From Bacillota bacterium (lineage in GTDB: Bacteria > Bacillota_A > Clostridia > Peptostreptococcales > Anaerovoracaceae), in contig JAFYLX010000093.1 of assembly GCA_017556895.1 (NCBI GenBank), positions 1 to 5,344 of the forward strand: a stretch of DNA of 5,344 nucleotides, in the 5' to 3' direction. A model generated the notes under the pieces. It had not been told where the DNA came from. It ran no database searches and was given only the letters and a program-made list of their open reading frames with translations. Position numbers and translations under genes: made by a program. Shown in pieces: positions 4,036 to 5,344 of this stretch (positions are counted from its first letter, which is position 1; each line of letters begins with the position of its first letter).

Positions 4036-5142
4036 ATGAAAAATAAAAAGAAACTAATTGCGATTATCATAGCTGCACTAGTTGTAGTGGCACTTGTAGT
4101 CGCTGGCATATTCGTATTTGTTCTAGGCGGAGAAGATGAACCTACGCTACAGGAGACTATCGAAAACAGAGCGGATTCCTACAAGACTGACTTTGAGGAT
4201 TCAATGGCGCAGATGACTGATCAGGCTTCCGTTACTAAGTACCTAGTAAACTGGGCGGAAAACAAGGGTATCGATGTCGAAACAGACTACAACAATAACG
4301 TAATCTACTCCTTGAAAGCTTCAGAAGGTTTAGAAGACAGAAAACCGTCTGTTATCCTTTGTGGATACGACTATTCTTCTATCGAGTCTTATACAAACAG
4401 CATCGTTTGTGCACTTACTCTTGCTAGAGACGACAATCCTCACGGCGAGTACAAGATTATCTTCGTTTCCGAAGAAAATGGTAACAAAGATGCAGCTCAC
4501 AACATTCCAGAGGAATATTTGGAAGAAGCAAACGAAGTATTCTACCTAGGTAATGACTCAGCATCAAAGATTGTTGATACATCTGCTGGCATAGTAAGCT
4601 ATCAGTTCACTAACGAAATCGAAACTATGAGCCCTTCATACAACAAGGCTTATAAAGTTAGCATCACAGGAATCCCTGCTCAGGCCATCACAAGCAAGTC
4701 AGTATCTGCACCTAACCCAATCAAGTTATTAGGTAACTTACTTGCAAACTTCAAGTCCAAGTCCGTATTATTCGACCTAGTTGAGTTTACAGGCGGCGAC
4801 AACCCTAGTATGACTCCAAGCGAGGCTTCCATCACTATCGTAGTAGCGGAAGACGTATCTTCAAAAGTTGAGACTAGACTCGACAGCGCAATCGAATCCT
4901 TCAACGATAAGTATGCCGAAAGCTATCCTGAAGCAACTTACACATACGAAGTGGTTGATATGCCATACGAGGTAATCGAATCAGACGTTACAGAAAGCCT
5001 AATCAGCTTACTATATACTGCACCAAACGGAGTTTATTTCAAAGACGACGATAAGAATGTGACTGCATTCTCCTGCATCACTGCTATCGACTATACATCC
5101 GGAACAGGGAGCATATATTGCAGCGGGCAGTACGGTAACTGA
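4036..5142 (+). CDS. Membrane-anchored M20/PepD-like protein, C-terminus apparently truncated
   Basis: The start is ATG 4036, placed 6 nt after AAAGGGG (4023-4029), not the GTG at 3994. The 368-residue product begins with a lysine-rich MKNKKK and one hydrophobic segment (about 7-30) without a lipobox cysteine, so it is probably anchored with its domain outside the cell. The rest resembles the M20 dipeptidase PepD: SVTKYLVNWAENKGIDV, then KPSVILCGYDYSS (about 104-115), SEENG at 145-149, NPIKLLGNLL, and TGGDNPSMTPSEASI near 252-266. Metal ligands look lost: the usual GHMD is GYDY and the usual GADNG is SYTNS, while the Glu-Glu pair remains, so it is probably not an active peptidase. PepD proteins run about 480 residues. 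This one stops early, and its last 8 or so residues come from sequence that encodes GlmU in another frame. The family assignment is from remembered motifs. Confidence 0.6.
   Translation: MKNKKKLIAIIIAALVVVALVVAGIFVFVLGGEDEPTLQETIENRADSYKTDFEDSMAQMTDQASVTKYLVNWAENKGIDVETDYNNNVIYSLKASEGLEDRKPSVILCGYDYSSIESYTNSIVCALTLARDDNPHGEYKIIFVSEENGNKDAAHNIPEEYLEEANEVFYLGNDSASKIVDTSAGIVSYQFTNEIETMSPSYNKAYKVSITGIPAQAITSKSVSAPNPIKLLGNLLANFKSKSVLFDLVEFTGGDNPSMTPSEASITIVVAEDVSSKVETRLDSAIESFNDKYAESYPEATYTYEVVDMPYEVIESDVTESLISLLYTAPNGVYFKDDDKNVTAFSCITAIDYTSGTGSIYCSGQYGN
5096..5115. other. Probable rearrangement or assembly junction
   Basis: Up to about 5098-5107 the M20-like frame still reads plausible family sequence (TAIDYTSGTGSI). 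From 5102 or 5108 the frame shifted by +1 reads the GlmU C-terminus. The two coding signals meet within a few bases, with no insertion sequence, target duplication or inverted repeat at the joint. This is what a deletion, a recombination event, or a mis-joined assembly would leave. Confidence 0.65.
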
Positions 5143-5239
5143 AGATGTGGAAGGGGATGCATTATTCATTGCTCGTGCAAAAGGCACTAAGAAGCCTGAT
5201 TGGGTTTCTGCTAAGGGTATTTTGAACAAGAAAAAATAG
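5108..5239 (+). pseudogene. glmU: 3' remnant of glmU (C-terminal end only)
   Basis: Forty-three codons ending at TAG 5237-5239 read GAYIAAGSTVTEDV, then GDALFIARAKGTKKPDW, ending in a lysine tail. This is the end of the left-handed beta-helix acetyltransferase domain of GlmU, the bifunctional enzyme that makes UDP-GlcNAc for peptidoglycan. EQ at 5102-5107 may also belong to it. Full-length GlmU is about 450-460 residues, so roughly nine tenths, including the uridylyltransferase domain, is absent. The frame has no start codon or ribosome binding site and overlaps the end of the M20-like frame, so it is not expected to be translated. The following gene looks like prs, the usual neighbour of glmU in Firmicutes, which supports the identity. 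Confidence 0.85.
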
Positions 5240-5267
5240 TTTAGTCACAAAATTTTAGTCACAAAAT
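5240..5267. repeat. 14-bp tandem duplication between glmU remnant and prs
   Basis: TTTAGTCACAAAAT occurs twice head to tail without mismatch (5240-5253 and 5254-5267), and TTTAG recurs at 5271-5275. It begins at the base after the glmU stop codon. It has no hairpin and resembles a replication-slippage duplication. Confidence 0.85.
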
Positions 5268-5305
5268 TAATTTAGTTTTTTATTTAAGAAGGCGAGGTAA
5301 ACAAA

Positions 5306-5344
5306 TTGAAAAGCGGAAATTATGCTGATTACAAAATCTTTGCA
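5306..5344 (+). CDS. prs: Probable ribose-phosphate pyrophosphokinase (first 13 codons)
   Basis: A TTG start at 5306 lies 8 nt after a good ribosome binding site, AAGGCGAGG (5289-5297). It opens a frame reading MKSGNYADYKIFA up to the window edge. The pattern GNY-x-D-x-KIF-(A/S) is the typical start of Prs, which makes PRPP from ribose 5-phosphate and ATP for nucleotide, histidine and tryptophan synthesis. Only 13 residues are visible, so the call rests on this short motif and on the preceding glmU tail, since glmU-prs is a conserved order in Firmicutes. Whether it has a promoter in this arrangement is unclear; none is seen in the 66-nt gap, so it would depend on read-through from the M20-like gene. 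Confidence 0.7.
   Translation, partial: MKSGNYADYKIFA

Follow-up and report, generated by a model that had tools for sequence, protein, structure and literature searches.

An M20/PepD-like gene joined to the end of a GlmU-type acetyltransferase gene: a probable chimera at a contig end

The DNA analysed here is a stretch of 5,344 nucleotides (the window) from a Bacillota bacterium, in which an M20/PepD-like gene breaks off and is followed within a few bases by the end of an unrelated gene. Was the gene cut in the living strain, or were two pieces of DNA joined outside the cell? From left to right the window contains an rpmB fragment, nrdG, nrdD and a GNAT acetyltransferase gene, all on the minus strand, and the M20/PepD-like gene on the plus strand. 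The assignment of rpmB comes from reading a 54-residue frame; NrdD and NrdG score above their NCBIfam cut-offs. The M20-like open reading frame begins with ATG at 4036 and ends at 5142 (368 amino acids), its stop codon being TGA at 5140-5142. The initial annotation described a change of coding frame at this point and took the second frame for the end of GlmU. Both statements were confirmed: the second frame is open over 5108-5236 with a stop at 5237-5239, and its 43 residues match GlmU models, best NF010934, with E = 6.5e-9. The stretch used in this search (P0002) also included 13 codons upstream of 5108. The features around the joint are collected in Table 1.

Table 1. Coordinates of features on either side of the joint in the window
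Feature	Position	Strand	Evidence
5′ part of M20/PepD-like gene, hydrophobic N-terminus (residues 1-357; P0003 has 472 amino acids)	4036..5106	+	357/357 residues shared with P0003 ahead of the joint; TIGR01893 81.4 bits, under cut-off
Probable joint; at most 3 bases (5104-5106) assignable to both sides	5104..5107	+	Agreement with P0003 through codon 357; blastn match to L002/L036 from 5106; Glu in the window for Gly of the tail family
M20 frame running out of frame over the foreign tail to stop TGA 5140-5142	5107..5142	+	Reading of the open reading frame
3′ end (43 codons and stop) of a gene for the GlmU C-terminal half (hexapeptide-repeat acetyltransferase)	5108..5239	+	NCBIfam GlmU models, best E = 6.5e-9; 40/43 residues identical to P0071; blastn match to L002/L036
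Spacer and first prs codons, cut by the window end	5240..5344	+	5286-5340 identical to L002/L036 in 55/55 bases; same first residues in L002 prs

A protein search with the M20-like sequence gave 67 homologues, the best of which, P0003, is identical to the window over all of residues 1-357. P0003 then continues for another 115 residues, whereas the window frame has 11 out-of-frame residues in their place. P0003 represents a cluster with 7 members from 5 contigs, considered here through this one sequence; the longest ENA contig that carries P0003 has 13,722 bases. In an alignment, 66 of the 67 homologues extend more than 60 residues past the position of the joint, and the remaining one (P0067) is named as partial. 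These results argue against a natural end of the M20-like protein at this point, which the initial annotation had named as the finding that would overturn a truncation. A pattern written for the C-terminus of M20 proved too narrow, matching only 13 of the 67 homologues, and the alignment was used instead.

Neither the window frame nor full-length P0003 (102.5 bits) reaches the cut-off of 343.75 bits for TIGR01893, the M20/PepD aminoacyl-histidine dipeptidase model. The H-x-D motif of PepD binds metal and includes a metal-binding His. When P0003 is aligned to 2qyv, a weak match with an i-Evalue of 0.007 over the stretch concerned, this His falls on Gly110. In all 67 homologues the corresponding column is occupied by G, S, E, T or P and never by His, the alignment to PepD being weak. 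As there is no His at the PepD site, and P0003 starts with a hydrophobic stretch, the family may be a membrane-anchored, inactive relative of PepD.

The source of the tail was sought in relatives of the window. Among 196 genomes searched, the best match to P0003 was found in Bacillota bacterium SUG1458 (G001, locus L001). Instead of a full GlmU, this genome carries a 230-amino-acid gene that covers GlmU positions ~236-450 and lies between murC and prs-pth. The gene 5′ of prs in the relatives is a stand-alone GlmU C-terminal half of ~230 amino acids (L002:1474-2166; homologues in L036-L047), and the expectation that the donor was a GlmU of 450-460 amino acids did not hold there. The hexapeptide-repeat acetyltransferase half of GlmU spans positions ~235-450; P0071 and P0087 match TIGR01173 over 237-450 and 235-449 with 263.4 and 261.4 bits respectively, and the precomputed Pfam domains of the homologues agree. 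The tail in the window corresponds to the end of the acetyltransferase half of bifunctional GlmU. The relatives' gene (16 of 17 genomes) remains below the TIGR01173 cut-off, its match beginning only at model position 231-239 (204 in one genome) and extending to the end region. When the best 120 of 5062 matches were compared, the tail was closest to P0071; none of these 120 came from the donor's gene itself. A 31-base tail pattern gave no match in viral_contigs, and phage records searched in near mode gave none to window positions 4036-5344.

Compared with the murC-GlmU C-half-prs-pth operon of L002/L036, window positions 5106-5340 track the gene tail, spacer and prs start, and the window lacks murC as well as roughly 187 codons from the start of the acetyltransferase gene, of which it keeps only the last 43. 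When window positions 5000-5344 were aligned by blastn with the G001 locus, 183 of 235 columns were identical over 5106-5340 (E = 3e-49), including every one of the 55 bases around the prs start. The E value, over 5106 through 5340, indicates that the downstream likeness is more than chance. The prs start itself, TTG at 5306-5308, was assigned by likeness to L002. The spacer 5′ of prs contains two copies of a 14-base tandem repeat, starting at 5241 and 5255 (window 5241-5268); the L002/L036 spacer is shorter, and the alignment is gapped at this repeat.

The position of the joint can be bounded from both sides. The window agrees with P0003 through codon 357 and mismatches from 5107; residues 358 and 359 differ, and the agreement at residue 360 is taken as chance. 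Codon 357 occupies 5104-5106, which places the end of the M20 side at 5106. In the tail family, a Gly stands two residues before a GAYIAAG-type motif in all 101 proteins in which the motif was found by pattern (120 were examined, and the 19 that did not match the pattern were left out). The window has Glu (5102-5104) in place of this conserved Gly, so the tail should start no earlier than ~5104. The joint therefore probably falls at 5104-5107, and the two sides can share no more than three bases, as judged from proteins on the M20 side. The foreign piece is 238 bases long and extends to the window end, and GC content shows no clear break at the joint.

P0003 has matches in 97 of the 196 genomes, and 30 of these loci (L006-L035) were examined. 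Their flanks contain GNAT in 19 of 30, NrdD in 19 of 30 and RpmB in 8 of 30, and none contains the acetyltransferase, murC, prs or pth, the flanks covered being ~1.5 kb or less (~1.4-1.6 kb downstream, but only 108 bases in L009). A search for the acetyltransferase in 17 genomes gave one strong match in each of 16, and only a weak match in G078. At 12 loci from the 16 strong-match genomes, murC lies 5′ and prs and pth lie 3′ of the gene in every case; M20, GNAT, NrdD, NrdG and RpmB are near it in none of the 12. The two halves of the window thus belong to two different loci, separately conserved in relatives, as is characteristic of a chimeric contig or read. Where both genes lie on one contig, they are on opposite strands and face each other, ~346 kb apart in G077, ~159 kb in G100 and ~132 kb in G017. 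The same layout is seen in G066 with a separation of ~200 kb, the M20 match there being weak (E = 5e-15). The M20 identity to these relatives is 27-33%, and 23% for G066; as all four are distant, the two genes may be arranged differently in the species of the window.

We consider it probable that the window ends in a chimera, in which the M20-like locus is joined to a piece of the murC-glmU(C-half)-prs operon. A protein that matches the window in all 357 residues ahead of the joint is present at full length in public data, the two loci lie apart in the relatives, and the foreign bases reach the window end; a size of 238 bases is close to that of a read or short insert. Chimeric contigs and reads are a known kind in shotgun and metagenome data, and the window resembles them in its abrupt switch between two loci, with little or no shared sequence and a short foreign end piece. 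Homologous recombination at the joint is disfavoured, since three or fewer shared bases are too few. Against a chimera it can be said that the tail comes from the same clade, with no clear break in base composition, and that most of the M20 loci examined extend only ~1.5 kb downstream. Simple contamination is disfavoured by the first of these points. The shared words on which assemblers join sequences are far longer than three bases; as three would not mislead an assembler, this reading has to assume a chimeric molecule or read. The alternative, which we regard as rather unlikely, is that a rearrangement in the strain (an inversion, a translocation or a partial duplication of acetyltransferase-prs) interrupted the M20-like gene after codon 357 through illegitimate recombination. 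Both halves are of the same clade, joints with few shared bases occur in bacteria, and an inversion between facing genes, as found in G077, G100, G017 and, with its weak M20 match, G066, would yield such a joint. However, public data contain this protein intact, with no difference ahead of the joint, and an inversion would in addition disrupt the acetyltransferase gene, of which 16 of 17 genomes have a single strong copy. The initial annotation had offered a mis-joined contig or a deletion as the cause. The mis-join stands as the likelier of the two. A simple deletion cannot join genes that lie on opposite strands, which an inversion could, and it does not fit a separation of more than 100 kb (132-346 kb in three relatives), if the layout is that of those relatives.

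If the joint were real, the living strain would have a cut M20-like gene and a copy of prs parted from an intact GlmU-type acetyltransferase gene, and prs would be expressed from a new promoter. The GlmU-type acetyltransferase family is essential in other bacteria, and 16 of 17 genomes have a single strong match, so a joint that cuts this gene would require a second copy or loss of the enzyme. The strain would survive by a second copy or by another route to GlcNAc-1-phosphate, and we regard this reading as a whole as improbable. It is extremely improbable that the joint is a functional fusion, in which a programmed frameshift near 5104-5107 would give the M20-like protein an acetyltransferase tail. 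Both frames are indeed open over 5069-5139, but M20 sequence continues in 66 of 67 homologues, and the 43 residues represent only the end of a repeat domain. A single homologue of the 67 (P0021) has a five-residue word in common with the tail, and it ends in an ordinary M20-family C-terminus. The chance that the lineage's M20-like protein ends here naturally, with a coincidental likeness downstream, is practically negligible: the frame does close in a stop, but P0003 is identical to the joint and then continues, and a coincidence does not account for the blastn match to the operon or its unbroken identity at prs.

For the preferred reading, a chimera, we infer that the join arose outside the cell. 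A DNA molecule, a read or an assembly step would have joined the rpmB-nrdG-nrdD-GNAT-M20 locus to 238 bases of the murC-glmU(C-half)-prs operon, the latter coming from the same or a closely related species. Neither gene would then be truncated in a living cell, and the 368-amino-acid frame with its 11 out-of-frame residues would be a product of the mis-join. The earlier description of a truncated M20-like gene with a foreign tail is supported as a description of the contig, in that P0003 continues past the joint and the tail matches another locus. Reading the joint as a chimera spares the annotation a gene truncation and a gene fusion that are probably false, and the last 238 bases of the window are unsafe for claims about gene order.

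The form of GlmU in the relatives may be worth more than the joint itself: their gene before prs encodes the acetyltransferase half only, which raises the question of which enzyme completes UDP-GlcNAc. The proposal of an intact glmU of ~450 amino acids elsewhere in the genome found no support. None of the 17 related genomes exceeds the TIGR01173 cut-off (366.85 bits); in 16 only the C-terminal half is strongly matched, and G078 has just a weak match. Matches to the N-terminal half were weak, 55 bits at best. In control genomes TIGR01173 matched 14 of 14, and 9 of 14 were above the cut-off; as the cut-off is this strict, the missing N-terminal half is the firmer point. Narrow searches of the literature with combined terms returned no report of a GlmU without its uridylyltransferase half, which does not imply absence from print.

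The UDPGP family PF01704, searched as a stand-in uridylyltransferase, was found in none of the 17 relatives, and no control genome matched it either, so this negative carries no weight. Profile searches with PF12804 and PF00483 in six genomes gave a protein of ~378 amino acids, which we read as IspDF from its sequence rather than by a family search (frames of G001, G003, G006, G017, G077 and G100, some partial). A further protein of 306-313 amino acids was present in all six genomes (L072, L073, L074, L075, L077 and L080), with a weak match to PF00483. It resembles a sugar-phosphate nucleotidyltransferase, a name that likewise comes from reading the sequence and not from a family search; as a guess, it is one candidate for the missing uridylyltransferase half of GlmU.
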